This document shows positions 1,070-48,645 of a DNA stretch of 59,095 bases, piece after piece; positions within the stretch are counted from its first letter, which is position 1; each line of letters starts with the position of its first letter. The stretch comes from a virus, in the IMG/VR virus record IMGVR_UViG_3300042892_002848, positions 1-59,095 of that record; one strand, written 5' to 3'. The position numbers and the translations under genes are program-made. A model generated the notes under the pieces. The model had not been told where the DNA came from and searched no databases. It saw only the letters and a list, made by a program, of their open reading frames with translations.

Positions 1070-1360
1070 TTATTGTGTCAGCATCCTGATCAAGCCAACA
1101 CTGTCAATGGTCACCAGCAGGATGTAGTTAGCCAACATACCAAACGATTTGCGAGTCCAACTAGCCCAAGCGTACATAGCACAACCAAGAATCCAAATAG
1201 GATACATAGCAAGTAAAGGGGGAGTGGGTACAGTGGCAGCCATCGTAATGCTACAGCCAATACTGATAGCCCAAGCAAGTACTTCCACGACAAAACGGAA
1301 TCTGTTAGTTTTGTAATCATCATGTATCCAGGTAAAAATATCTTTGAGAATTATGTTCAT
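1070..1360 (-). CDS. Small multi-pass membrane protein
   Basis: 96 residues when started at the ATG at 1360, which overlaps the uvdE stop (ATGA); the longer open frame to 1423 lies inside uvdE and is unlikely. Three hydrophobic stretches: about residues 22-42, 47-65 and 72-92. Similar small membrane proteins occur in T4-like marine phages without known role. Translational coupling places it downstream of the uvdE promoter. Confidence 0.6.
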   Translation of the reverse strand: MNIILKDIFTWIHDDYKTNRFRFVVEVLAWAISIGCSITMAATVPTPPLLAMYPIWILGCAMYAWASWTRKSFGMLANYILLVTIDSVGLIRMLTQ

Positions 1361-2385
1361 GCTAGTTGTTTGTAGTGCTCGTACACCTGCATGGATGCTA
1401 GATTCTTGCCCTTGGCTTCGCACTGAATGTCAAAATTGTCAGCAAACCCCACTACCCATTTGTTGCAGGCATCATTCCACATGAAGTCACTATGTGCGCG
1501 GAGCTTTTGCTTTTTAAAACCTCGATCAAGAAGTTCAGAAAGGTCTGGTCGAACGCTTCGATCATGCCCAACCAAAATATCTTCACGACTAACAGAGTAG
1601 TGAAGAGCAGGACGCTGACCACGCCAAGACTCAATAACCCGCATTGTACGAGAGTCAGTGGGGGTGATGTATTCCCCCGAGTTGATCCAGTGGTGGTGTA
1701 CATCCAGCACAAGAGCAACATGCTCAGCCACAAGCAAAGTAGTATCAATCCCATTTGTCATCTCATCATTCTCGATGGTAATTAGATTTCGCGCTTCAGG
1801 AGTCAGTCGACCCAGTGTGCGCAAAAACTTGTCGGGACCACCTTTACCCGACAAATGTACGTTGATTTTAAAACCATGATCATGCCAGGTTTTTCCATAG
1901 CCCATCCAACGGGCCATGTCTGCATGATACTCAAATTCCAGGATACTGCGTTCTACAATTTCATCCGACTCACTGGCCAGCACACAGAACTGTCCGGGAT
2001 GGAAGCTGAGTCGCACACCCAGTCTGCGGGCAGTTTCGCCAACAGGAGCAAAAATACGGGCCAGATGATCTTGTATCTCTGTTCGCTGCCACCAGTCAAT
2101 CCAGCTGGCTTCAGTATATCCTTGCAGCATTTCACTACCCAGGCGCACCATTCTGCGTTCGGGAGGTAGCGTGGCCACTCGTTCAATCATTTTTACTGCT
2201 GCGGCAGCATTGTGATTCATTATGTCCCATTGCCGTTGTTCAGCTTCGTCTGCATGTTCGCGAAGCCAGCGCATGGTGGTTGATCGGCCGTTTAGTTCAC
2301 GGTCCACTGCATTGACTTTCATGCCGCCACATTCGCTCGGATCATTTAGCCATTTGCAACAAAAACCAATCTTAGGTGTAATCAT
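1357..2385 (-). CDS. uvdE: UV damage endonuclease UvdE/UVSE
   Basis: 342-residue TIM-barrel endonuclease that nicks DNA 5' to pyrimidine dimers and other lesions, starting alternative excision repair. The family's N-terminal start (MITPKIGFCCKWL) and conserved metal-site strands are visible: RLSFHPGQFCVL, INVHLSGKGG, LITIENDE, LVLDVHHHWIN and LHYSVSREDI. Length matches the family. I place the start at 2385: the upstream in-frame ATG at 2403 lies inside a sigma70 promoter whose -10 ends only 6 bp before 2385, so the mRNA is probably leaderless. A small membrane protein follows as ATGA. UvdE would help the phage survive sunlight in surface water. Confidence 0.93.
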   Translation of the reverse strand: MITPKIGFCCKWLNDPSECGGMKVNAVDRELNGRSTTMRWLREHADEAEQRQWDIMNHNAAAAVKMIERVATLPPERRMVRLGSEMLQGYTEASWIDWWQRTEIQDHLARIFAPVGETARRLGVRLSFHPGQFCVLASESDEIVERSILEFEYHADMARWMGYGKTWHDHGFKINVHLSGKGGPDKFLRTLGRLTPEARNLITIENDEMTNGIDTTLLVAEHVALVLDVHHHWINSGEYITPTDSRTMRVIESWRGQRPALHYSVSREDILVGHDRSVRPDLSELLDRGFKKQKLRAHSDFMWNDACNKWVVGFADNFDIQCEAKGKNLASMQVYEHYKQLA

Positions 2386-2391
2386 GCTTGT

Positions 2392-2420
2392 ATTATACAA
2401 CACATCTGGAATAATGTCAA
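2392..2420 (-). promoter_or_regulatory. Consensus sigma70 promoter of uvdE, leaderless type
   Basis: TTGACA (2415-2420), 17 bp, TATAAT (2392-2397). Both hexamers are perfect. Only six bases separate the -10 from the ATG at 2385, so transcription should begin at or next to the start codon. Confidence 0.85.
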
Positions 2421-2433
2421 ATCAGTAGCTGTT

Positions 2434-2441
2434 CATAAATA
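2434..2441 (+). promoter_or_regulatory. T4-type late promoter, CATAAATA
   Basis: CATAAATA differs at one base from the T4 late promoter TATAAATA. It is followed by an A-run, AAGGAG and the ATG of the 95-residue gene at 2458. Confidence 0.65.
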
Positions 2442-2457
2442 AAAAAAAGGAGTTTTT

Positions 2458-2745
2458 ATGTGGATATCTGTAGTTACATATTCGGTTGAGGCAGTTAGGA
2501 CTAATTCAGCAAATTTGAATATTTTAAGAGATATTCAAATCAAAGCACAAGAAATGATTGACAACGGTCTTGGCGGGGACTTGATGCCAGGATACGAAAA
2601 TGCAGCAAACATAACTGCAAATACTGACCAAACATCTGTAGAAGTCAAACGCGGCTGGCACACACAAGAAGCGGCTGAAACATTTGTTAATTATGTGTTA
2701 TCAAACAGTGATGGTGTAGCTACTGGCCAAGTTGAATCCGGTTAA
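2458..2745 (+). CDS. Small protein, unknown function, late-expressed
   Basis: 95 residues, soluble, no recognised motif. It has a good ribosome site (AAGGAG, 6 bp before ATG) and a late-type promoter just upstream, which supports it as a real gene although it is a lone plus-strand gene between two minus-strand operons. Its end overlaps the 3' end of the convergent amidinotransferase gene by 4 bp. No function can be assigned. Confidence 0.6.
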   Translation: MWISVVTYSVEAVRTNSANLNILRDIQIKAQEMIDNGLGGDLMPGYENAANITANTDQTSVEVKRGWHTQEAAETFVNYVLSNSDGVATGQVESG

Positions 2746-3665
2746 CATCGTACCAAATCAAGCGTTACACAGTGGAATCCCCCGCCTAGAGTCCTGCTGT
2801 GACGCAGTTCCAGGGGTATAACCGTCATGCCCATACCTTGTTCTAGCGCCTGTATCATGGCTTCCTGTTTGGCATCAACTATGACGGTTTTAGGATCAAT
2901 GCTCAACATGTTGAGTGCAATCCATTTTGATGCATACGGATATTCGTAAAATCCTTGCGCTATTACTTCTTCAACAAAAAATATCTCTTTTCCCTTGAGA
3001 TGTCGTGGTAGATCTTTTCTATTCCGATCTAGTCTGCTGCCATTAACAACAAATTGATCTGCATTCAGTGCCACTATTGTTGAATCAATATGTACTCCAG
3101 AATAAAAGTTACACAGTTCAATATCTACCTCGGGCAATTGTGCACATAGCCACTCGTAAGCAGCTCGATTGCCGCTAGCAGATTCCAAAAATAACCATCG
3201 GTGCTGATCTACTCTCAGCACATTAGCAGCGTCCAGCACCATACCTGAGTCTCGAGGCATGTGAATGATCTGATCAGCATCTTCAAGTATGTCTATATAA
3301 CACTGGTATTCTTGATCACGGCAAGGATACATCATGGCAGGATCAATTATGATAGAACCATACACAATAAATCGATCACGTGGGCAATAGTTGTACAGCC
3401 CATCATGGGTTTGAAAGTCAAATGTACTGGGACGCACAACTTCCACACCATGCATGGTCAAAATGCTGCACAAGCCTTGTAGGTCTTGATTGGTTTCCTG
3501 TATAATGTGCTCGGGCACTGGTCCGCTGGGTAATGGTGTATGTTTCCACAGTGTGCGTTCAGCTTCGGATCTAAACACAGGATCCTTTGTGGGCCAGTTG
3601 GCATAGGCAGCGTCACCTACCACAATGCGTTTTAGTGTGCTGTATTCGTTGTAGCTGGAGATCAT
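2742..3665 (-). CDS. Amidinotransferase-family enzyme (glycine/inosamine amidinotransferase-like)
   Basis: 307 residues of the pentein-fold amidinotransferase family, which moves an amidino group from arginine to an amine acceptor through a Cys intermediate. Catalytic signature visible: CPRD (94-97), LDAAN with Asp145, GVHIDS with His192 and Asp194, and GGGFHCVTLD with the nucleophile Cys299. It overlaps the 2OG oxygenase gene by 4 bp (ATGA) and is third in an operon with a nucleotide-sugar dehydrogenase. The acceptor is not predictable; relatives modify glycine, inosamines or lysine. Hydrolytic relatives (arginine deiminase, dimethylargininase) cannot be fully excluded, though the C-terminal GG-HC-T pattern favours a transferase. 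Confidence 0.88.
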   Translation of the reverse strand: MISSYNEYSTLKRIVVGDAAYANWPTKDPVFRSEAERTLWKHTPLPSGPVPEHIIQETNQDLQGLCSILTMHGVEVVRPSTFDFQTHDGLYNYCPRDRFIVYGSIIIDPAMMYPCRDQEYQCYIDILEDADQIIHMPRDSGMVLDAANVLRVDQHRWLFLESASGNRAAYEWLCAQLPEVDIELCNFYSGVHIDSTIVALNADQFVVNGSRLDRNRKDLPRHLKGKEIFFVEEVIAQGFYEYPYASKWIALNMLSIDPKTVIVDAKQEAMIQALEQGMGMTVIPLELRHSRTLGGGFHCVTLDLVRC

Positions 3666-4186
3666 TTGGGCACATGTCCAGTAACTTGTAACGTGTACCT
3701 GACTGTGGCACCCATGTTGGCTGCCATGTGTGGAGTGTCATAACACCATTCTATCACATCACCCGCACGCCACTTGACCACAGGTTCGTCCATGGCCTCC
3801 AAGTAGTGTCCAGGTTGCCAATCCTGTAAAAATATCACAGCTCGGCAAATGGTGTGTTCCTGACCTTGCAGATCAAATATGTCAATGTATTTTTTGTAAA
3901 GATCTTGGTGTGTGGGCAAAATTGTTCCTGGCATCATTCTGTAGTAACTGGTGCCAATATCTTGCCATCCCAGCTGGGTGAACACTTCAATGATAGTTTG
4001 GTTCCAGCTGGGTTGTGCACTACGCATGTCGCACATGTCGCCTGTGAACTTGCTTGAAAATCCTTGTGCCAACCAATGTTCAATTGATTCATTGTCGTTG
4101 AATGTTTCATTGATATATTCAAGGTCCAGGAATTCATCATCCCAAAATGCAGGAATATGATATTTAGAGACTGCGTGTGTTGCCAT
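3662..4186 (-). CDS. 2OG-Fe(II) oxygenase, aspartyl/asparaginyl beta-hydroxylase-like
   Basis: 174-residue jelly-roll dioxygenase. The iron triad is visible as His93-Gln-Asp95 (PTHQD) and His153 (PHMAAN), with Arg163 (RYTLQ) in place to bind the 2-oxoglutarate carboxylate. Length and the PHxAxN...RYxLQ pattern fit the compact aspartyl/asparaginyl beta-hydroxylase-like group common in phages. Substrate unknown. Its start overlaps the ugd-like gene by 23 bp and its end overlaps the amidinotransferase, so all three are made from one transcript and probably work on one molecule (inference). Confidence 0.85.
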   Translation of the reverse strand: MATHAVSKYHIPAFWDDEFLDLEYINETFNDNESIEHWLAQGFSSKFTGDMCDMRSAQPSWNQTIIEVFTQLGWQDIGTSYYRMMPGTILPTHQDLYKKYIDIFDLQGQEHTICRAVIFLQDWQPGHYLEAMDEPVVKWRAGDVIEWCYDTPHMAANMGATVRYTLQVTGHVPK

Positions 4187-5414
4187 AATGTATTACTGTC
4201 ATGCCTGTTCGATTTGCTTCTTGTCGGAACGGATCAACAATGATGCTGCCTTGAACAAATTCAAAGTAGTCTGGATCTGTTGCTTGTACACCTGTGTAGC
4301 CATATGTGATGTTGCGATTGTGTGCCATAAGAATCACTGCTGGCTGATCAAACGATGTTACACAATCTGTGCGGTCATCTGCCAATGGGTCAACATATTT
4401 AACCAGGACTCCTAGCTCTTTCAAGTAGTGTCCAACCAAGGTGCTGTAGCTGCCAATACAGTAAGGCACGTTGGGCTTGTAGGCTTTGCCATGAATCACT
4501 ATGGGCAAAAGACCAAAAGCCTTTCCATCCTGTAGTGCAGTGTCAAACAAAAACTGAGCAAGGTTGCGAGCTTGCTGTTCTCGAGCCCGCATGATGGTGT
4601 CAAACAAGTCATAGCCAATATTGTATTCTTTGGCCAACCAGCGTAGAGCAATGTTGTCACGCGGATGGCAAGCACCTGCATCGCCCATGCCCGCGGTCAT
4701 GTATTTAGGTCCCATGATCCGCATGGTGCTGGCAGCCAGTGCATCGGTAACCACATCCACATTGATGTTACCAATCTTGACCGCAAAGTCTTGAATCATG
4801 TTTACTATGCCCACTTTGGCTGAAATAAATGTATTGTAGAAGATCTTAATAGCTTCACATTCTTCCCAGGTGCCTGTCACATAGCGTGGCGAATTTTTCA
4901 TCATGGACTGATATAACTCCACTAGTTCCTGTATTTCTGTGCCTGCTCCGGTGTCTGAACCAATCATGACCATCTCAGGGTTGACCATGTCCCACTTAAC
5001 CGATCCCATGGCAATAAGATAGGGGTTATATAAGAATGTGTGTTTGGGATCTAATAGTGTTGCAAAGTGTTTTCTAGTAGTACCAGGAAGCACTGTGCTG
5101 ATCAGCACAACTTTTTTTGGAGAGTCAGCATAGGCATTGATTTTTTCCAGCGCATCAATTACCGCGTGGTGACCAAAATCTTGCGGACACATGTGGCTTG
5201 ACGGAACTGATCCGTCATAACCGTCAGCATGCGGAGTAGGCACTGCCACAAAAATCCATTCACATGATTCTATTACTTGCTGCACATCGCAAACTTTAAC
5301 AAGGTCACTTGATCTTGGGTAAATATCATATCCGTACACAGTATAATATTCAGCAAACACTTCGGCACATTCAAGCCCTAACTTGCCGAGACCAATAAAT
5401 CCAACATTTTTCAT
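4164..5414 (-). CDS. ugd: UDP-glucose/GDP-mannose dehydrogenase family protein
   Basis: 416 residues. An NAD-dependent double oxidation of a nucleotide sugar C6 alcohol to a uronate is expected. N-terminal Rossmann motif GLGKLG (8-13), a central dimer helix with ECEAIKIFYNTF (Lys190, Asn194), and catalytic Cys249 in GDAGACHPRDN, the equivalent of the family's GGxCxPKD. The C-terminal UDP-binding domain is present (HGKAYKPNVP). First gene of an operon with a 2OG oxygenase and an amidinotransferase. TATAAT and AAAGGA lie upstream (about 5432-5442) inside the divergent gene. The uronate could feed capsule or LPS synthesis or, by analogy with chlorovirus UDP-glucose dehydrogenase, a virus-directed polysaccharide. 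Confidence 0.9.
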   Translation of the reverse strand: MKNVGFIGLGKLGLECAEVFAEYYTVYGYDIYPRSSDLVKVCDVQQVIESCEWIFVAVPTPHADGYDGSVPSSHMCPQDFGHHAVIDALEKINAYADSPKKVVLISTVLPGTTRKHFATLLDPKHTFLYNPYLIAMGSVKWDMVNPEMVMIGSDTGAGTEIQELVELYQSMMKNSPRYVTGTWEECEAIKIFYNTFISAKVGIVNMIQDFAVKIGNINVDVVTDALAASTMRIMGPKYMTAGMGDAGACHPRDNIALRWLAKEYNIGYDLFDTIMRAREQQARNLAQFLFDTALQDGKAFGLLPIVIHGKAYKPNVPYCIGSYSTLVGHYLKELGVLVKYVDPLADDRTDCVTSFDQPAVILMAHNRNITYGYTGVQATDPDYFEFVQGSIIVDPFRQEANRTGMTVIHYGNTRSL

Positions 5415-19886: not shown

Positions 19887-20192
19887 TTATCCTAGTATCA
19901 ATTTCTTTTCTGGCACCTTGATGCCAGTGGTTGCTTCGATATACTTCATTTTGACTTCTTGGTCAGTGAGTGCATAGATTGCAACATTATTAATATTTAT
20001 TGTGACCGAAGCCTTGCGTTCTGCGGTAAACACACTGGGCACAAGACCCAGCCCTTGTGGTCCTGGTGCTACGCTAACTGGCTCACTTACTGTGATAAAA
20101 TTGTATTCAATCAGTTCTACTCTTGCAATCAGTTCTTCTCCCGAATTGAGTTTAAATGTGCAAACCTGTCCCAGTGTTTTTTCAATATTCAT
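19887..20192 (-). CDS. Sm-like (LSm/Hfq-type) fold protein
   Basis: 101 residues. The LNSGEELIARVELIEYNFITVSEPVSV stretch matches the strongly bent five-strand Sm pattern (x-G-x-E-x-x-A-x-V...), followed by LVPSVFTAE and a C-terminal GIKVPEKKLILG that I associate with T4-like marine phages. Sm proteins form rings that bind RNA, but phage members are not characterised, so RNA binding is inference. The start overlaps the glutaredoxin stop (TAATG). Confidence 0.6.
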   Translation of the reverse strand: MNIEKTLGQVCTFKLNSGEELIARVELIEYNFITVSEPVSVAPGPQGLGLVPSVFTAERKASVTININNVAIYALTDQEVKMKYIEATTGIKVPEKKLILG

Positions 20193-20413
20193 TATGCTAG
20201 TTTCTTTCTGAGTTCTGTAAATCCACCCACTAGTTCTTGATCCAAGAATATCTGTGGTAGTGTTCGAGCTGTTGGTACTGCTTCTAGTAGTTGTTCACGT
20301 GTCCAATCCCGGCTCACGTTGCGTTCTTCATATTCAATTCCTTGAGATTCCAGTAGTGCCTTTGCTTGAGTGCAGAAAGAACAGAAATCTTTTGACCATA
20401 CTATTGCTTTCAT
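20192..20413 (-). CDS. Glutaredoxin
   Basis: 73-residue thioredoxin-fold protein with the redox motif CSFC at residues 12-15 and the cis-proline strand TLPQIF, followed by VGGFTELRKKL. It would reduce the disulfide formed in ribonucleotide reductase at each turnover, using glutathione. Same transcript as nrdA and nrdB, which supports that role. T4 has an equivalent (NrdC). Confidence 0.93.
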   Translation of the reverse strand: MKAIVWSKDFCSFCTQAKALLESQGIEYEERNVSRDWTREQLLEAVPTARTLPQIFLDQELVGGFTELRKKLA

Positions 20414-20422
20414 GTGTTTTCC

Positions 20423-20869
20423 TTATAGTTGTGATGTGTTGTACGTTTTGGCAAAGATGTCTGATTTGACAACACCGTAATCACCAGGGCCGTGCTTGAC
20501 AATATAATCATTGCCCTTGGTATAGTTTAAATCTCCCCAGCTGGCTCGGACAACACCATCATGGTCAGCCAGTCGAGCAATCTTCATGATCTTTTTGGGT
20601 ATTGCTGTGCCATCACCATTGTCGTCGTAGTATGCAGCAAACTTGATGGGACTTACAGGATACTTTTCTCCCTTGGGACCAGTAATAATCTTGTGTCCAA
20701 CAGTGTACTTGACTGGACCTTCAAGAGTGTCTACCGTACCATTGTCTGTGGCAGTTTCGTAGCTGATGGCAGTAGGGTGTTTGTAGGTTTGAAAACCGCC
20801 GGTATCAAACCAAGTATCATCTACTCGTGGTGCAGTTGCTGCAATAGATTGTTTAATATCATCATTCAT
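20423..20869 (-). CDS. PGDYG-family protein
   Basis: 148 residues. The C-terminal KHGPGDYGVVKSDIFAKTY is the signature of the PGDYG family (found in bacteria and phages), whose function is unknown; a related GPKGEKYPVSPIKF segment lies mid-protein. Positioned between nrdB and glutaredoxin, so it could act in nucleotide metabolism, but only the location suggests so. Confidence 0.7.
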   Translation of the reverse strand: MNDDIKQSIAATAPRVDDTWFDTGGFQTYKHPTAISYETATDNGTVDTLEGPVKYTVGHKIITGPKGEKYPVSPIKFAAYYDDNGDGTAIPKKIMKIARLADHDGVVRASWGDLNYTKGNDYIVKHGPGDYGVVKSDIFAKTYNTSQL

Positions 20870-20871
20870 TT

Positions 20872-21972
20872 TTATAGTTCCGGTAGTGCATCGTAGTCTA
20901 GTTGATCACTCATGACTCCGATAACATAGTTAGTGCTTTCAGACTCTTGCAGTGCAGTTTGTTTGTTGCTGGTGTTGACGTGCTTGTTGAACCAAGGAAT
21001 AGGTGTGCTACGGGGTGCAGGTTCCAGATACTTGATACCAATTTCCTTGAGTGCAGCCACGGCTGTGTAGTCCACAAAGTCTTTGAGAATGTTGGCATTG
21101 AGTCCAATCACAGGTCCCTTGTTGAACAGGTAGTCTGCCCAGCCCTTTTCTTCACGTATCACATCCAGGTACAGTGCATACACTTCGGCTTCGCACTCGA
21201 CCTTGGCAGCAGCAAAGCGTGGATCTTCTTTGACCACCTGATTGATAATGTAACCAGTCCATTCTTTGTGCAGAATCTCGTCTTGAAGAATCAAGCTGAT
21301 GATGTTACCATTGCCCATGAAGATCTTGTTCTCCACCATGGCCAGGCTTGTGGCAAAGCTGACCATAAAGCGGAAGGCTTCCAGTGCATAGCTGGCATGC
21401 AAGGCCATGTAGATTGCTCTCACATGTTCTGTTTCTTCCACAGACTGTCCCAGTTCTTTGGCACAGTTGATTCTGTGCAGGTCATCATAGTACCGGCCCA
21501 CACTTGATGCCATGTCAATGATCTGTTGTGTGTCGTGAATGGTGTTGAACACATCCTTGGGCACGTTGTAGATGTTGCGAATGATGTGGCTGTAACTCTT
21601 TGAGTGAATGTTGGTTTCAAAGAATGTCCAGTTGTAGATCAAGGCTTCTAGTTCTGGCAATGATACTACAGGCATAAAGATCTGACTGGGTCCACGACCT
21701 TGCAGGCTGTCTAGCGCTGTTTGGCGCAACAGGTTACTGGTAAAGATATGTTTCACTGTTTCGCTGGCATCCTTGAAGTCATTTGAATCTTTGGTCAAGC
21801 TGACTTCTTCGGGTTGCCAAAAGAATCCACGTGCTGTGGCTTCGTAGTCTGCAATCTTTTTGTATTTGACTTCTTCAAAGCGTTGGATTGTGACAGGACC
21901 CGCTGGATCCAGAAACATCTTGCGATTAAGGTAGTCTGTCTTTGTTGTTAAATTGTATTGTTGTTTTGACAT
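20872..21972 (-). CDS. nrdB: Ribonucleotide reductase class I, beta subunit NrdB
   Basis: 366 residues from the ATG at 21972 (AGGAAA upstream), not the ATG at 21993. It houses the di-iron/tyrosyl-radical cofactor. Ligands align with E. coli NrdB: Asp88 (LDSLQGR), Glu119, His123, radical Tyr127 (HSKSY), Glu182 (ETEH), Glu198 (ALEAFRF), Glu232 and His235 (DEILH). An extra residue (Asn121) lies between Glu119 and His123, giving E-x-x-x-H where E. coli has E-x-x-H. Located in the nrdA-nrdB-glutaredoxin operon with an alarmone hydrolase and aldolase between the subunits. Confidence 0.95.
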   Translation of the reverse strand: MSKQQYNLTTKTDYLNRKMFLDPAGPVTIQRFEEVKYKKIADYEATARGFFWQPEEVSLTKDSNDFKDASETVKHIFTSNLLRQTALDSLQGRGPSQIFMPVVSLPELEALIYNWTFFETNIHSKSYSHIIRNIYNVPKDVFNTIHDTQQIIDMASSVGRYYDDLHRINCAKELGQSVEETEHVRAIYMALHASYALEAFRFMVSFATSLAMVENKIFMGNGNIISLILQDEILHKEWTGYIINQVVKEDPRFAAAKVECEAEVYALYLDVIREEKGWADYLFNKGPVIGLNANILKDFVDYTAVAALKEIGIKYLEPAPRSTPIPWFNKHVNTSNKQTALQESESTNYVIGVMSDQLDYDALPEL

Positions 21973-21973
21973 T

Positions 21974-22597
21974 TTAATATTTTCCTGAAGCAAGCACTAT
22001 CTTGCAAATGTGTTCTAGTCTTTCTATGTGCTCGTAAGCACGCCACGGTGTTGTGTCAATGGCCACAACACCGTGTCCTTTGATGCCCACAATGTCGTAG
22101 GCAATATTTCCTTCATTGTCTAATTGTAACATAGTGTGGCACTGGTCTGCAAGCTCTTGGCTAATGGGAGCCACATCACCCACATTGGGTGCCACTCGAG
22201 TGTAGCGATTCAATTCTGGAAATGCCGCACTCACTGTACTCAAATCAATACCAGCATGCATGGCCGCTATACAGTAGGTGGGATGTAAGTGAACTACTAC
22301 TCGCACTTCATCGCGGTGCTGACCCATTTTTCGTTGTAGTCCAAGGTGTAGGGGCAGTTCGCCCGACGGTTCGAGATTGGCACTGATATCAGTGTATGGC
22401 TGCTCTTCCCACAACATACTGCCAACAATACGAATCTTCTTGAACTGGTCCGGCTGTAGTGTTTGCTTACGCACACCACTAGGTGTGATATAAAAATGGT
22501 CACGGTCGTGGTGACGAATACTCACATTGCCATCACGACTGGTAATCCAATTGCGTTTATACGCATCCAACATCACATCACAAATGGTTTCTAACAT
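21974..22597 (-). CDS. Class II aldolase/adducin-family protein
   Basis: 207 residues. Zinc-dependent sugar-phosphate aldolase/epimerase fold. Motifs match L-fuculose-phosphate aldolase: GNVS (23-26), PSG (39-41), EPSGE with catalytic Glu80, the metal His pair in VVHLHPTYC (103, 105) and the third His in KGHGVVAI. The complete set of metal ligands suggests an active enzyme. Substrate unknown; relatives act on fuculose-, rhamnulose-, ribulose- and methylthioribulose phosphates. Its place between nrdA and nrdB suggests a link to pentose supply for nucleotides (inference). Confidence 0.85.
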   Translation of the reverse strand: MLETICDVMLDAYKRNWITSRDGNVSIRHHDRDHFYITPSGVRKQTLQPDQFKKIRIVGSMLWEEQPYTDISANLEPSGELPLHLGLQRKMGQHRDEVRVVVHLHPTYCIAAMHAGIDLSTVSAAFPELNRYTRVAPNVGDVAPISQELADQCHTMLQLDNEGNIAYDIVGIKGHGVVAIDTTPWRAYEHIERLEHICKIVLASGKY

Positions 22598-22612: not shown

Positions 22613-23122
22613 TTATTTGAATAAATCCACTAGCTCTAGGGCCAATGCATTGTTACCCAAGACTGGACTCAAATCCTTGTGTTCATCTCGGTACATTTTA
22701 AGTTTTTTTGGATTGTTTGCTAAACCACTTGGTAAACTGGCAGAAACATTGCTCAATCGGTCTGCACTCTTTACCAATTCACTTCCTGGAGTTTGAGCAA
22801 TCTTAGCAATGGCATTTGCCATTTTTTCTTTTCGGTTCTCTCCGCGGCCTGTTACTGCCCAAACTATATTGGCAACATTATCACCAAATTGTTGTTTGAT
22901 TTGTTCCAATGTGACATCTGTATCTTCCACTATATCATGCAACCAAGCAGCAGCAATTATTTCTGGGTCTTGTGTAATTGTTTTAACACGGGCAACAACA
23001 TCCGCCAAATGGGTGGCATAAGGGTGTACACCGTATTTTTGGTTCTTGTGTGCATCAACAGCAAGAGTTTTTGCCTTCAACTCTATGTCATCTGCACTTT
23101 CTAACAGTTCATTTATTTTCAT
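22613..23122 (-). CDS. Small alarmone hydrolase-like HD protein (SpoT/MESH1 type)
   Basis: 169 residues. HD-fold (p)ppGpp 3'-pyrophosphohydrolase pattern, close in layout to animal MESH1: HPYATH (metal His38), WLHDIVEDT (His62-Asp63, then Glu66-Asp67), then PGSELVKSADRLSN with Asp121 and Asn125. No synthetase domain, so it is a stand-alone hydrolase. It should lower the stringent alarmone, lifting the block on nucleotide synthesis and growth. Encoded between nrdA and the aldolase/nrdB. Its N-terminus MKINELLESADD resembles those of several virion-region proteins. MESH1 can also act on NADPH, so other substrates are possible. Confidence 0.82.
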   Translation of the reverse strand: MKINELLESADDIELKAKTLAVDAHKNQKYGVHPYATHLADVVARVKTITQDPEIIAAAWLHDIVEDTDVTLEQIKQQFGDNVANIVWAVTGRGENRKEKMANAIAKIAQTPGSELVKSADRLSNVSASLPSGLANNPKKLKMYRDEHKDLSPVLGNNALALELVDLFK

Positions 23123-23133
23123 ACCATGTCATG

Positions 23134-25449
23134 CTAGAGCTTGCATGCCTCACAATCTTCTTGCTCGTCAAAATCAATCACTTCTAACGGAGCATCTTCC
23201 GTGACATTCTTGCTGCCGGTCTTGTTGATCAGGCTGTAGTAAAAAGTTTTCAGACCCCAGTAGTGTGACTGCATCAAGTTCCGAGCAATCAAGGTAGTGG
23301 GTACCTTGCGGTCTGCAAAGTGTGCAGGATTGTAAAAAGTGTTGGTGCTGATGCTCTGGTCCACATAGGCAGCGATAACTGCTGCAGTCTTTAGGTAGCC
23401 ATCGCAGTCTCTTTGTTCCCACATCAACTGATATTTGTTCTTGAGTTTGTGATATTCTGGAACCACTTGTGTCAAGCTGCCAGCTTTGCTTTCTTTGACA
23501 CTAATCAAGCTCATGGGCATTTCAATACCGTTGGTTGAGTTGATCACAACTGAGCTGGATTCCACAGGCGCCACTGCCATTTGTGTGGCATTGCGTACAC
23601 CATGCGTTTTCATTTCTGTGCGTAATTTTTCCCAGTCAAGTTCTGGAGCAAAGTCTGCAAGTTCGTTAACACCCTGAGCACGTAGTTCCCAAGGAAATTG
23701 TCCTTGCCCATAACGTGTGTGATCACTGCCTTCGCATCGGCCACGTTCTTGGGCCAGCTCAACTGACGCTTCGGTCAAGTAGAATGCCAGATGTTCCATC
23801 CAGGTTTTGACTTCGGCTAGAGCATCCTTTTCACCGTACCGGAGGCCGCGTTTGGCGTGCCAGTAGGCCAGGTTGGTGATGCCGATTCCAAGTGGTCTAA
23901 TTTCATCGTTGGATAGTTTAGACTGGATGGAAAGAAAGTCCTGATAGTCAAGAATGTTGTTGAGGCTACGATGCAGTATACGACAAGCCCTGCGCATATC
24001 TTCTGGGTTACGGAACGCACCCCAATTGATTGAGCCCAGGGTGCAAAGTGCGATACGACCAGTATCGTCATCCAGACGTTTAAAGGACTTAGTAGGTAAA
24101 AGTATTTCACAGCAAAGGTTACTCTGGTAGATGGTATGGTATTCGGGATCAAACGGTCCCTGCTTCATCACATTGTCAATAAACACCAGATAGATACGTC
24201 CAGTGTCTGTGCGTTCTTTCAAGATACCGCCCTTGAATACTTCTTCTGCGCTCATGGTCTTCTTGCGAAGGTCCTTGCGTTTTTCGTATTTGACATAGAG
24301 TTCTTCGAACAGTTCAGTGTTACTATAAAATGCTTGATATAGATCCGGAACCTGGTTGGGATCAAAGAATGTTATGTTTTCTTTGTTCTTGAATCGTCTC
24401 CAGAAGAAGGCGGATAGGACCACACCGTAGTCCATGTGTCGCACTCGTGTTTCTTCTGTACCTTGATTGTTTTTAAGCACAATAAGGTCATCAAACTGGT
24501 GATGCCATATTGGATAAAACACTGTAGCACTTGCATTACGGATACCTCCTTGACTACAACTACGCAGATCTCCAAACCATTTTTTCAAGAATGGAATCAT
24601 GCCAGTGTGCATGATCTCGCCACCACGGATGGGTGAGCCCAGTGGGCGTAGTCTTCCAATCTCCAGCCCAATGCCAGCTCGCTTGCTGGCATACTTGGCC
24701 ATCATTTCCCCTGAAGCAAATATACTATCCAGGTCATCATCGCTGCGTATAAGAACACAACTTGAAAATTGCTTTGTAGGAGTGCCGAGTCCAGCAAGAA
24801 CAGGAGTAGCAAGAGTAAACAGGCCATCACTAGCCGCATTGTAGTATTCCTTGATGTAGCGCATTCTCGCTGTGTTCGGTTCTTCTGAGTGAAATACAGT
24901 AGCGGCCGCGACCATGTATCTAATTTGTGGAGTTTCATAAGTTTGTCCTGTGGAACGATTTTTTACCAGGTACTTTTCAATCAGCTGCTCAATGGCCGCA
25001 TAGCTGTATTGTTCGTCCTTGGCATGATCCAGCATGTCATTCATGCGGTTCCAGTCATCTGGTGTGTACCAGTCCAGTAGTTCAGGTGTGTACAGGCCGG
25101 TGGCCACATTGGTCTTCACAATGTCATACAGGTGAGGAGGCTCGTAGCTGCCATACACATCTTTTCTCAACATGCTAAGACGCTGCTTGCCCGCTACATA
25201 TTGATAGTTGGTATGGCCCACATCTGGATTTGATTCTACGTCGATCAAGTCTACGATTGCTCTAAGCGTGATACCATCAATTTCTTTGGTAGTAATGCCA
25301 TCGTAAAAGTGCAATTGTGCCTTGATCTCTACCATACTTTGACTTACATCTGCAATACCTGTGCATATCTTAGCAATCTGAGTTTGCCACTTTTCCAACG
25401 CCAGTGGCTCGCGCTGCCCTGAGCGCTTTTGTACTATTATAGTTTTCAT
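23134..25449 (-). CDS. nrdA: Ribonucleotide reductase class I, alpha subunit NrdA
   Basis: 771 residues, complete. An N-terminal ATP-cone (about 2-90; IIVQKRSGQREPL) gives activity control by ATP/dATP. Catalytic residues align with E. coli: Cys231 (SSC), Asn444-Cys446-Glu448 (SNLCCE), Cys469 (ALCTLGSIN), the tyrosine pair FYYS for radical transfer and the C-terminal CEAC shuttle (766-769), which a glutaredoxin would reduce. Reduces ribonucleotides to dNTPs for phage DNA. First of a run through nrdB and glutaredoxin on the minus strand; the start has AGGTAAT before ATG. Confidence 0.97.
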   Translation of the reverse strand: MKTIIVQKRSGQREPLALEKWQTQIAKICTGIADVSQSMVEIKAQLHFYDGITTKEIDGITLRAIVDLIDVESNPDVGHTNYQYVAGKQRLSMLRKDVYGSYEPPHLYDIVKTNVATGLYTPELLDWYTPDDWNRMNDMLDHAKDEQYSYAAIEQLIEKYLVKNRSTGQTYETPQIRYMVAAATVFHSEEPNTARMRYIKEYYNAASDGLFTLATPVLAGLGTPTKQFSSCVLIRSDDDLDSIFASGEMMAKYASKRAGIGLEIGRLRPLGSPIRGGEIMHTGMIPFLKKWFGDLRSCSQGGIRNASATVFYPIWHHQFDDLIVLKNNQGTEETRVRHMDYGVVLSAFFWRRFKNKENITFFDPNQVPDLYQAFYSNTELFEELYVKYEKRKDLRKKTMSAEEVFKGGILKERTDTGRIYLVFIDNVMKQGPFDPEYHTIYQSNLCCEILLPTKSFKRLDDDTGRIALCTLGSINWGAFRNPEDMRRACRILHRSLNNILDYQDFLSIQSKLSNDEIRPLGIGITNLAYWHAKRGLRYGEKDALAEVKTWMEHLAFYLTEASVELAQERGRCEGSDHTRYGQGQFPWELRAQGVNELADFAPELDWEKLRTEMKTHGVRNATQMAVAPVESSSVVINSTNGIEMPMSLISVKESKAGSLTQVVPEYHKLKNKYQLMWEQRDCDGYLKTAAVIAAYVDQSISTNTFYNPAHFADRKVPTTLIARNLMQSHYWGLKTFYYSLINKTGSKNVTEDAPLEVIDFDEQEDCEACKL

Positions 25450-37408: not shown

Positions 37409-38497
37409 TTAAATCAAATCTACCAGGTCCGGAAATGCTGTTTTCCAGCTGTTGTTACGCCTTGAATCCCAGGTGGCAACAAAATCTCGCCATTCATGCA
37501 AGGTCAACGTCTGCGGCAAATTGCTAATCATTTTGTGTATCACGTGAGTGCTAGGGTATTTTGTCAAAATCAAATGTCTAATACCTGGAGACATTTTGTT
37601 TAGGTCCCATATTCCATGACAGGGATGAACATTTATTTCTGTTTTACCACCGCCGTAGTTTGTGGCCAAATTTTCTGAGATCCATGTTTCTACGCGGTCA
37701 AAATAATAGGCATTAAGAAAATTAACTGTGAATTCAATTCTAAACATCACGTTCCGAATGTCTGGATTGTGTTTGATACGCAACAGATTGTCACTGACTT
37801 TGTTCCAGGGCAGAGGCCAACGCACATAATCAAACTGTTGTTCTATTCCGTCTATGCTGGCTGCAAAGATCACTGTTTTAAAGTTGCGCCACATTGCCAG
37901 GGTTTCATCATTGGGATATATTGACCCATTTGTTGTGTAGTGCAAGGTGACCTGGCCAGGATTTGAAATATGTTCTAAAAATCTAAGATGTGTGTCTGTA
38001 AATAGTGGTTCGCCGCCAAAAAATTTGATATATTTAATTTTGTCCAAGGACACAGCTTTTACAATTTTGGCAATGTACTGATCAACAATTGTTTTATCAC
38101 TGTGAAATTTTACCGGTTGATTGTTGAGTTTTTGAGTTTCCTTGAGCCACAAAGAGCTGGATTCTTTCTTGCAAATCACACACGCTGCATTACACTCGTT
38201 GTCAAGATGTATGTCTATACTGACCGGATCAAGGGATGTTTCATCGTTGTCAATCCAATCAACGCCACTTTGTCTAAGACTTTGTTGTCCAGCTTGTTCT
38301 AATACGCGGCAACGGTTACATTCAGGAGTCCAGTCTGTTATTGTGTTTAATCTTTCCTGTCTGTCCTTCAACAAATCCGTACCTAGCAATATCCCTTTAC
38401 GCTGGTAAAGACAACAAGGGTTAACACCAACCTCATTGTTTCTGCCAATTTGAAACGAATACCCATTGGATAAGTATCTACAAAATTGATTTATCAT
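37409..38497 (-). CDS. Radical SAM protein with twitch/SPASM-like cysteines (first)
   Basis: 362 residues. 4Fe-4S motif C-x3-C-x2-C at 102-106-109 (CNAACVIC), the SAM-binding FFGGEPLF, and extra cysteines before it (Cys28, Cys29, Cys60, Cys63) of the kind that hold an auxiliary cluster in twitch-type enzymes. The C-terminal IRHLILTKYPS... WDSRRNNSWKTAFPDL recurs in the second such protein at 47,432. Substrate unknown; related phage proteins are annotated only as twitch radical SAM. Directly downstream of gp41 (1 bp apart). Needs Fe-S clusters, which phage IscU/IscA could help supply. Confidence 0.85.
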   Translation of the reverse strand: MINQFCRYLSNGYSFQIGRNNEVGVNPCCLYQRKGILLGTDLLKDRQERLNTITDWTPECNRCRVLEQAGQQSLRQSGVDWIDNDETSLDPVSIDIHLDNECNAACVICKKESSSLWLKETQKLNNQPVKFHSDKTIVDQYIAKIVKAVSLDKIKYIKFFGGEPLFTDTHLRFLEHISNPGQVTLHYTTNGSIYPNDETLAMWRNFKTVIFAASIDGIEQQFDYVRWPLPWNKVSDNLLRIKHNPDIRNVMFRIEFTVNFLNAYYFDRVETWISENLATNYGGGKTEINVHPCHGIWDLNKMSPGIRHLILTKYPSTHVIHKMISNLPQTLTLHEWRDFVATWDSRRNNSWKTAFPDLVDLI

Positions 38498-47431: not shown

Positions 47432-48559
47432 TTATTTTGCTACAAATTCTGCTAGTTCCGGAAATACAATTGAAAAATCTAGCTTCCTGTAATCGTCATG
47501 CTCGTGCAATTTAGATTTGAATAAATCAAAATAATCAGAATCGTTGGTGTTTTTTAGCAATTTGATCCACGTTTTTACATCAAGGTGTTTGCTGTTTTCT
47601 AAATGATTTGTTATTTTATCTTTTATTTGATCGGGCCATACGCCAGGTCTCATGTGCGCCGGAGAATGCACCCTTCCTAACCAAGGTCGCGGTAGTCCTT
47701 TGTTGTTGCACCAAGTAAAAAATTCGTCCAAATAGTAAATGTTATACGCACTGACAGTGTGGCTAACACTGAGTCTAAAATTATTGAGATTTGATTTTTT
47801 AATATAATTGTCAATATGGCAATTAACCTCAATCCAACTGGCAGGAAATCGAATGTATTCATAACGGTTGCCAACTCCGTCTATGCTTAGTTGCATATCA
47901 ATTTCTTTAAAATGCGTCCATAAATCCCACCATTCGTCATCTGGAAATACAGTTGCGTTGGTGGTATAATGTAATGTGATATTACTGGCTTGCCCAGACA
48001 ACACATAATAGTTCAACAATGCTTTTTGTTCCGGCACTCCACTTAGAAAGGGTTCGCCGCCGGGGATGTCAATATGAATAATACCAGGGGCATTGTTTAC
48101 AAAATCAGTAACAAATTCTTCTTTGAAAAACTTATGATGTTTTATTGTTATGTTGTAAATGTCTTTGGCTTCATTGTGCCATTTGCTAGACGACGTTGGT
48201 CCACAAGTGATACATTTTAAATTACATGTATTACCAAATGCAATGCTGGCTGTAATAAAATTATTTTCAGTCAACTGATAAATTTGGTATTGATCTTTCC
48301 ACCGAGTGTGGTCAAGTTGCCGCTTACTTTCAATACCGTTTTGTTCTTCAATTTGGCATCGTTCGCAGCCAATCGGCCATTGGTCATTGGTAAATTCAGT
48401 TTTTATTTGTTTTAAAAAATCACTGTTGGCATATGCAGTAATTGAGTCTGTCTTGATATTGTGTATTTTGTCATAGTGTTTGATCTGAAATTTACAGCAA
48501 GGTGTAATTGCACCAGTAGGTGAAAAATCTATATTGGACCAAGGACTATAACAAAACAT
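47432..48559 (-). CDS. Radical SAM protein with twitch/SPASM-like cysteines (second)
   Basis: 375 residues from the ATG at 48559. The open frame continues to 48613, but that stretch contains a terminator, so the shorter start is right. 4Fe-4S motif C-x3-C-x2-C at 112-116-119 (CNLKCITC), IPGGEPFL, and outer cysteines 21, 22, 65 and 68 as in the first radical SAM protein; both share a similar C-terminal region (WIKLLKNTND... FPELAEF). AT-rich compared with flanking genes. Late-type TTAAATA ends 7 bp before the ATG. Substrate unknown. Confidence 0.85.
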   Translation of the reverse strand: MFCYSPWSNIDFSPTGAITPCCKFQIKHYDKIHNIKTDSITAYANSDFLKQIKTEFTNDQWPIGCERCQIEEQNGIESKRQLDHTRWKDQYQIYQLTENNFITASIAFGNTCNLKCITCGPTSSSKWHNEAKDIYNITIKHHKFFKEEFVTDFVNNAPGIIHIDIPGGEPFLSGVPEQKALLNYYVLSGQASNITLHYTTNATVFPDDEWWDLWTHFKEIDMQLSIDGVGNRYEYIRFPASWIEVNCHIDNYIKKSNLNNFRLSVSHTVSAYNIYYLDEFFTWCNNKGLPRPWLGRVHSPAHMRPGVWPDQIKDKITNHLENSKHLDVKTWIKLLKNTNDSDYFDLFKSKLHEHDDYRKLDFSIVFPELAEFVAK

Positions 48560-48566
48560 TGTGCAA

Positions 48567-48573
48567 TATTTAA
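48567..48573 (-). promoter_or_regulatory. Late-type promoter TTAAATA, leaderless spacing
   Basis: TTAAATA on the minus strand, between the terminator and the radical SAM ATG, 7 bp from the ATG; no ribosome site is present. Confidence 0.5.
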
Positions 48574-48577
48574 CATT

Positions 48578-48609
48578 AAAAAAAACAGGTACCGTTTTAA
48601 GGGTACCTG
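48578..48609 (-). terminator. Rho-independent terminator downstream of the AAA+ gene
   Basis: Perfect 8-bp stem CAGGTACC/GGTACCTG (48,586-48,593 and 48,602-48,609) followed on the minus strand by eight T. It ends the transcript of the AAA+ gene and the 35-residue gene, just before the radical SAM gene. Confidence 0.9.
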
Positions 48610-48645
48610 CCAAAAGCCTGGGCCGGAGCCAACCAGCGCCCAGGA

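Follow-up and report, generated by a model that had tools for sequence, protein, structure and literature searches.

In a 59,095-base virus record of IMG/VR from a large freshwater phage, analyzed here at full length and referred to as the window, a gene for a stand-alone RSH-type HD protein of the small alarmone hydrolase (SAH) type is located between the ribonucleotide reductase (RNR) genes nrdA and nrdB. We consider it probable that this gene encodes a horizontally moving, catalytically intact RSH-type SAH, which acts on (p)ppNpp to remove stress or defense nucleotides and which landed in the nrdA-nrdB slot. The protein would act as a metal-dependent HD enzyme, probably using Mn2+, that cuts the 3' pyrophosphate of hyperphosphorylated purine nucleotides, with (p)ppGpp and/or (p)ppApp, or a close analog, as candidate substrates. 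The gene may have entered the slot in the window lineage as a mobile one-gene cassette and, having landed there, is presumably transcribed along with the RNR genes by virtue of its position. Removal of the stress or defense nucleotides of the infected host would keep nucleotide synthesis and growth capacity for the phage.

Gene order and conservation

The SAH gene (22613..23122, minus strand, ATG start) encodes a protein of 169 amino acids, as supported by ORF, family, PDB-sequence, AF2, and Foldseek evidence. It starts 11 bp after nrdA, on the same strand. The upstream nrdA gene (23134..25449, minus strand; PF02867, 3e-112) encodes the class Ia RNR large subunit. Downstream of the SAH gene and directly before nrdB lies a gene for a class II aldolase/adducin-domain protein (21974..22597, minus strand; PF00596, 6e-29), so that the SAH gene is flanked by nrdA and the aldolase gene, inside the nrdA-nrdB interval and not adjoining nrdB. 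The class Ia small subunit gene nrdB is annotated at 20872..21993 (minus strand; PF00268, 9e-42), and the true start of NrdB may be an ATG seven codons inside the annotated ORF. Read along the minus strand, the order is a gene for an uncharacterized 141-amino-acid protein, nrdA, the SAH gene, the aldolase gene, nrdB, and genes for a PGDYG protein (20423..20869, minus strand; PF14083, 6e-10) and for a glutaredoxin (20192..20413, minus strand; PF00462, 9e-15), which closes the RNR gene run. Elsewhere in the window, two separate radical-SAM-domain proteins (PHROG_14086) are encoded at 37409-38497 and 47432-48613.

The SAH-type protein matched HD_4 (8.7e-14), PHROG_990, annotated as "metal-dependent phosphohydrolase" (3.9e-38), and NCBIfam spoT_relA (7.6e-20), and its top PDB sequence matches were Rel/SpoT/MESH1/SAH enzymes, with scores for generic HD phosphohydrolases falling far below these. 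The dN/dS ratio of the gene was 0.035-0.042 in comparison with sister lineages and 0.17 in comparison with a relative of 64% identity (L013). Given these low values, the ORF is not a chance reading frame and is under strong purifying selection. The window copy carries a 12-bp (4-amino-acid) insertion at residues 130-133 relative to the copies of L004 and L005-L012, preceding the C-terminal helices.

Catalytic site and fold

Nine residues, H25, H38, H62, D63, E66, D67, K118, D121, and N125, are invariant in alignments of 21 phage homologs (A1) and 36 viral-contig homologs (A3). Among them are the first metal-binding His of the HD site (H38; codon at 23009..23011), the HD signature H62-D63 (22934..22939), the catalytic ED motif E66-D67 (22922..22927), D121 (22760..22762), and N125 (22748..22750), all on the minus strand. 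These were the residues by which the first-pass annotation had recognized an HD protein with MESH1/SpoT-type motifs between nrdA and nrdB, and ORF coordinates, families, and residues all confirm that description.

An AF2 model, for which the input alignment comprised the window protein and IMG/VR rows only, reached a mean pLDDT of 94 and a pTM of 0.89. Its best Foldseek matches were human MESH1 (TM 0.81-0.83) and the SAH of Pseudomonas aeruginosa (TM 0.79-0.80), and the matches at E<=0.001 were RSH/SAH-type structures. Catalytic residues, fold, and family thus bear out the assignment to the RSH hydrolase class, and judged from the sequence, alarmone hydrolysis by the window SAH is likely.

The hydrolase domain stands alone in this protein, and a synthetase domain is absent. 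Searches of the window and three relatives found neither a match to the RelA_SpoT synthetase (PF04607) nor a second HD_4 protein; the gene product is therefore an orphan SAH and not a recognizable toxSAS antitoxin. As no small alarmone synthetase gene (PF04607) neighbors it in the window or relatives, a toxSAS toxin-antitoxin pair was rejected, and redundancy with MazG was rejected likewise, as no MazG was found in the window or relatives.

Cargo of the nrdA-nrdB gap and recent transfer of the SAH gene

In all close relatives (L002-L012), the SAH gene is found between nrdA and nrdB, a position common to three phage lineages, which are represented by the window with L002 and L003, by L004, and by L005-L012. 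To survey this gap more broadly, 80 loci of freshwater phages were retrieved with the window NrdB (the L110-L189 group). The gap varied from -19 to 2073 bp and measured at most 20 bp in 17 loci. Aldolase-family ORFs were the commonest cargo (32 ORFs). Further cargoes were Fe/Mn superoxide dismutase (L125, gap interval 4823-5383, and L126), IscU (L136, 3857-4541, and L138, 4974-5351), an IscA-type protein (L136), a 2OG-Fe(II) oxygenase (L137, 4744-5364), TauD (L151, 1410-2492), a methyltransferase-domain protein (L143), and PGDYG proteins (L148, L149, and L189). Within this survey, SAH occupied the slot only in the two identical twins of the window; NrdB is more diverged in the L004 and L005-L012 types. 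Xanthomonas phage X1 and Stenotrophomonas phage Mendera, the closest relatives in culture, have no SAH gene in the nrdA-nrdB gap. The iron- and oxygen-related cargoes beside NrdB (superoxide dismutase, IscU, IscA-type protein, 2OG-Fe(II) oxygenase, and TauD) are suggestive, because NrdB depends on a di-iron cofactor. A survey of phage RNRs reported genes of unknown function from the nrdA/nrdB gap (PMC3653736), and in T-even phages this gap harbors mobE (PMC2988022). Like the window SAH gene, mobE is a single-gene cassette between nrdA and nrdB; however, it encodes a self-spreading homing endonuclease, whereas SAH has no known mobility function.

The SAH gene of the window shares 97% DNA identity with that of L004 or L005 (dS 0.12-0.15), whereas nrdA and nrdB show 76-81% identity in the same pairs, with dS from 0.9 to saturation. 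Set against a divergence of about 20% in nrdA and nrdB, the 97% identity of SAH shows that this gene moved recently. The block of identity extends from the 3' end of nrdA to just past the SAH stop codon (L004) or to about 65 bp into the start of the aldolase gene (L005). From these limits we infer that the SAH gene travels as a cassette, which would be exchanged at the junction or between its flanks. A short hybrid ORF in L005 (8514-8612; also present in L006-L012) joins the first aldolase codons to a tail, GDDWFYSIDAKKE, that resembles the tail of an unrelated cargo gene of L119 (GDDWFYTIEEKND). This hybrid ORF of L005-L012 is a trace of cargo turnover.

Base-binding loop and substrate

The base-binding loop of the window protein (Q28-KYGVHPYAT-H38; 23009..23041, minus strand), delimited by loop comparison, is short and without the canonical Arg. 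In place of the Rel/SpoT/PaSpo loop QxR(K)xGEPYIxHP, it reads QKYGVHPYATHL, which is shorter, has lost the Arg, and has HL for HP. From Rel structures, we take the loop Arg of Rel/SpoT to contact the guanine base. Residues 40-50 of RelSeq form an extended loop contributing to the nucleotide pocket in Rel/SpoT (PMC3153485). Of 79 bacterial proteins sampled, among the matches listed, 76 had the loop Arg and three lacked it; it is also kept in PaSpo of phage SSU5 and in the whole surrounding phage clade. It is missing, as in the window protein, in the P. aeruginosa SAH and in the Bacteroides caccae (p)ppApp hydrolase. RSH-type hydrolases may be specific for G (RelSeq), specific for A (SAHMex, acting on (p)ppApp only), or mixed (Mesh1), and the residues that decide this were not named (PMC7644958). 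With an Arg-less, shorter loop and all three preferences among related enzymes, specificity of the window SAH for (p)ppGpp is not to be assumed. Its predicted substrate is best put as (p)ppNpp, and going by the sequence, ppGpp as the specific substrate is uncertain.

A single origin of the Arg-less loop among phage sequences was rejected (AU p 0.005), because the members from Pseudomonas/Vibrio phages cluster with the (p)ppApp hydrolase. Apart from these stands a larger set of Arg-less phage sequences, and the window protein forms a branch of its own with L013 (support 99), the placement of which has only moderate support (SH-aLRT 81-82 at the joining forks). Sequence patterns defined the loop classes both in this tree and in the neighborhood survey described below, and the two differ in how they classify borderline cases, for instance QRYG. 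Viral homologs also share a GxNRKER-type motif, corresponding to residues 94-100 of the window protein (GENRKEK), in which R97 is at least 90% conserved (A3) and at which Rel differs. This motif may substitute for the lost loop Arg.

Relation to known SAH enzymes

Among characterized structures, the P. aeruginosa SAH (6yvc, 6z3n) resembles the window protein in its stand-alone HD fold, its complete set of catalytic residues, a full-length match (87 bits, family profile), and a loop in which the Arg is missing and HL follows. It differs in being bacterial, in an identity of only 28-29% in the structural alignment, and in its longer loop, QTLSGSPLPYLVHL. MESH1, the metazoan SAH (3nr1, 3nqw, 5vxa, 9chy), shares the HD site and is the best Foldseek match but has about 26% identity and the loop QRRKDPEGTPYINHP. 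Membership of the MESH1 subgroup was rejected, as the QRRKD..PYINHP loop is not found in the window protein and MESH1-like bacterial sequences form a separate clade. The B. caccae (p)ppApp hydrolase (PAH; 7smg) has the HD fold, an RSH-like site, and an Arg-less loop, which differs from that of the window protein (QIDKAGSAYIFH), and it groups with the Pseudomonas/Vibrio phage SAHs. The window protein has neither this grouping nor the QxDKxG loop and was not assigned to the PAH group; the function could be shared. PaSpo of Salmonella phage SSU5, a protein of about 200 amino acids, is likewise a phage-encoded orphan SAH with an equal catalytic set. However, PaSpo has an Arg loop (QKRKYTGEDYINH), belongs to a separate clade, and is encoded about 14 kb from the RNR genes of SSU5. 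Lacking the Arg loop QxRKYTGExYxxH and lying outside the PaSpo clade, the window protein was not placed in the PaSpo group. The jumbo-phage proteins of PHROG_990, termed "HD-alarmone PDease" (PMC7824862), and the SAH of phage Adele (PMC12846349) belong to the same broad family and have the same predicted role but, unlike the window gene, lie outside any RNR operon. In Adele, SAH occurs together with NAD+ reconstitution genes, and in K8, of the same genus, SAH is separated from nrdB by 35 kb and from a gene of the NAMPT family by 5 kb.

Genomic neighborhoods and alternative functions

A SAH homolog was detected in 374 INPHARED phages, and RNR genes adjoined it in none of 18 inspected cultured-phage regions. 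Among distant viral-contig loci, nrdA/nrdB was found less than 8 kb from SAH in L061 only, at a distance of 5 kb. A rescan for closer relatives yielded none between 45% and 64% identity. Near Arg-less SAHs, genes for NAMPT, NMNAT/Nudix, or Prs are often found. In L013, the closest SAH relative outside RNR, SAH is followed by NMNAT/Nudix, a macro-like protein, and NAMPT (1081-5279), a neighborhood of the NAD-reconstitution type. In L044 (7956-11368), SAH is clustered with a Prs-like gene, from which it is separated by about 9 bp or which it overlaps, and with a gene of the NAMPT family; this set resembles the NARP1-type set plus an alarmone hydrolase.

In whole-record searches, 23 of the 44 Arg-less records had a NAMPT-family member, as did 3 of 33 records with the Arg loop. 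No more than 7 kb separated SAH from NAMPT in 12 of 19 lineages (KS p 5e-5 versus random placement), the SAH-nrdB gap was that short in 0 of 11 lineages with both genes (p 0.93), and NAMPT was nearer to SAH than nrdB in 10 of 11 lineages, in a distance test for which lineages were delimited by judgment and the random-placement null takes no account of early and late gene blocks. These associations, and the position of SAH directly upstream of NMNAT/Nudix and NAMPT in L013 at 64% identity, point to an alternative in which the substrate of the loop-variant phage enzymes is an adenine nucleotide, such as (p)ppApp, NADP(H), PAPS, or an ADP-ribose derivative, and in which these enzymes work alongside NAD+-reconstitution genes, serving anti-defense or repair of the NAD pool, while the copy in the RNR slot is displaced. 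The leading structural matches include complexes of MESH1 with PAPS and with NADPH, XccSAH hydrolyzes NADPH and pppApp (PMC9765508), and SAHMex provides a precedent for strict adenine preference. However, it is disputed whether MESH1-type enzymes act on NADPH (PMC7644958), NAMPT was not found in the 340-kb, 105-kb, and 99-kb relatives of the window, records that are fragments, and the proximity of SAH and NAMPT may merely mirror early-gene regions of large phages. We regard this alternative as rather unlikely. Tentatively, it is conceivable that the "QxYG-loop" phage hydrolases are a distinct RSH-fold class that has lost guanine reading and clears an adenine-type nucleotide in NAD+/nucleotide counter-defense, with the RNR-slot gene as a mobile copy. 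The linkage of the Arg-less loop to NAD genes would also fit a role as 2'/3'-phosphonucleotide phosphatase.

The first-pass annotation had coupled the enzyme to dNTP production. ppGpp represses nucleotide synthesis, and a dedicated (p)ppGpp hydrolase retained in the RNR operon, by which ppGpp removal accompanies dNTP production, would agree with the same-strand location of the gene between nrdA and nrdB, closely behind nrdA, and with the recurrence of this position in three lineages. Yet the slot is variable, mostly holding other genes or being empty, the recent cassette exchange accounts for the identical position, SAH-nrdB spacing is random in the 11 other lineages, and the base loop is without Arg. 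RNR adjacency was seen in no other phage lineage examined, and a stable association of SAH with nrdA/nrdB across lineages was not found. Functional coupling by conserved position was hence rejected as the main explanation, and we consider such a dedicated hydrolase unlikely. The RNR link of SAH is a lineage-specific accident of position, and a service to RNR in particular is not supported by our data.

It is improbable that the window SAH counteracts toxic small alarmone synthetases in particular, by reversing pyrophosphorylation of the tRNA CCA end or by removing (p)ppApp from CapRel/FaRel-type systems. In cells, PaSpo, which was also used in another study (PMC9712102), strips from tRNA the pyrophosphate that toxSAS enzymes install (PMC11559606), and a phage SAH can therefore act in this way; moreover, an accessory role that depends on the host would agree with frequent exchange in the cargo slot. 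However, it is the Arg-loop enzyme of a different clade from the window branch that sets this precedent. Finally, a general HD phosphohydrolase (dNTPase or 5'-nucleotidase) merely resembling RSH hydrolases would suit the surrounding nucleotide metabolism genes and the Pfam matches, which are to broad HD and HD_4 models only, but is highly improbable, since non-RSH HD structures appear in Foldseek only from E 0.058 and TM 0.49, versus 3e-7 and 0.81 for MESH1/SAH, a ranking on which a generic HD phosphatase was rejected, and since K118..D121..N125 is an invariant pattern of RSH type.

Implications

The first-pass view that an RSH-type hydrolase in this setting is little described applies to the RNR location: in the literature searched, the coverage of which is incomplete, no account was found that places an SAH gene within an RNR operon or links SAH with NAMPT. 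It does not apply to phage SAHs as such: jumbo phages have predicted ones (PMC7824862), the SAH of phage Adele was described, with a base preference said not to be predictable (PMC12846349), and PaSpo was found active in cells (PMC11559606). Beyond the SAH gene, the nrdA-nrdB slot provides a natural catalog of the genes placed with RNR in freshwater phages, several of them iron- or oxygen-related. Control of alarmones by phages has long been argued via MazG. The MazG of a cyanophage was without action on (p)ppGpp (PMC6850273), and SAH-type enzymes, carried by hundreds of phages, are better candidates than MazG for this control. The loop-variant branch and its repeated NAD-gene neighborhood turn this into a concrete question of substrate.
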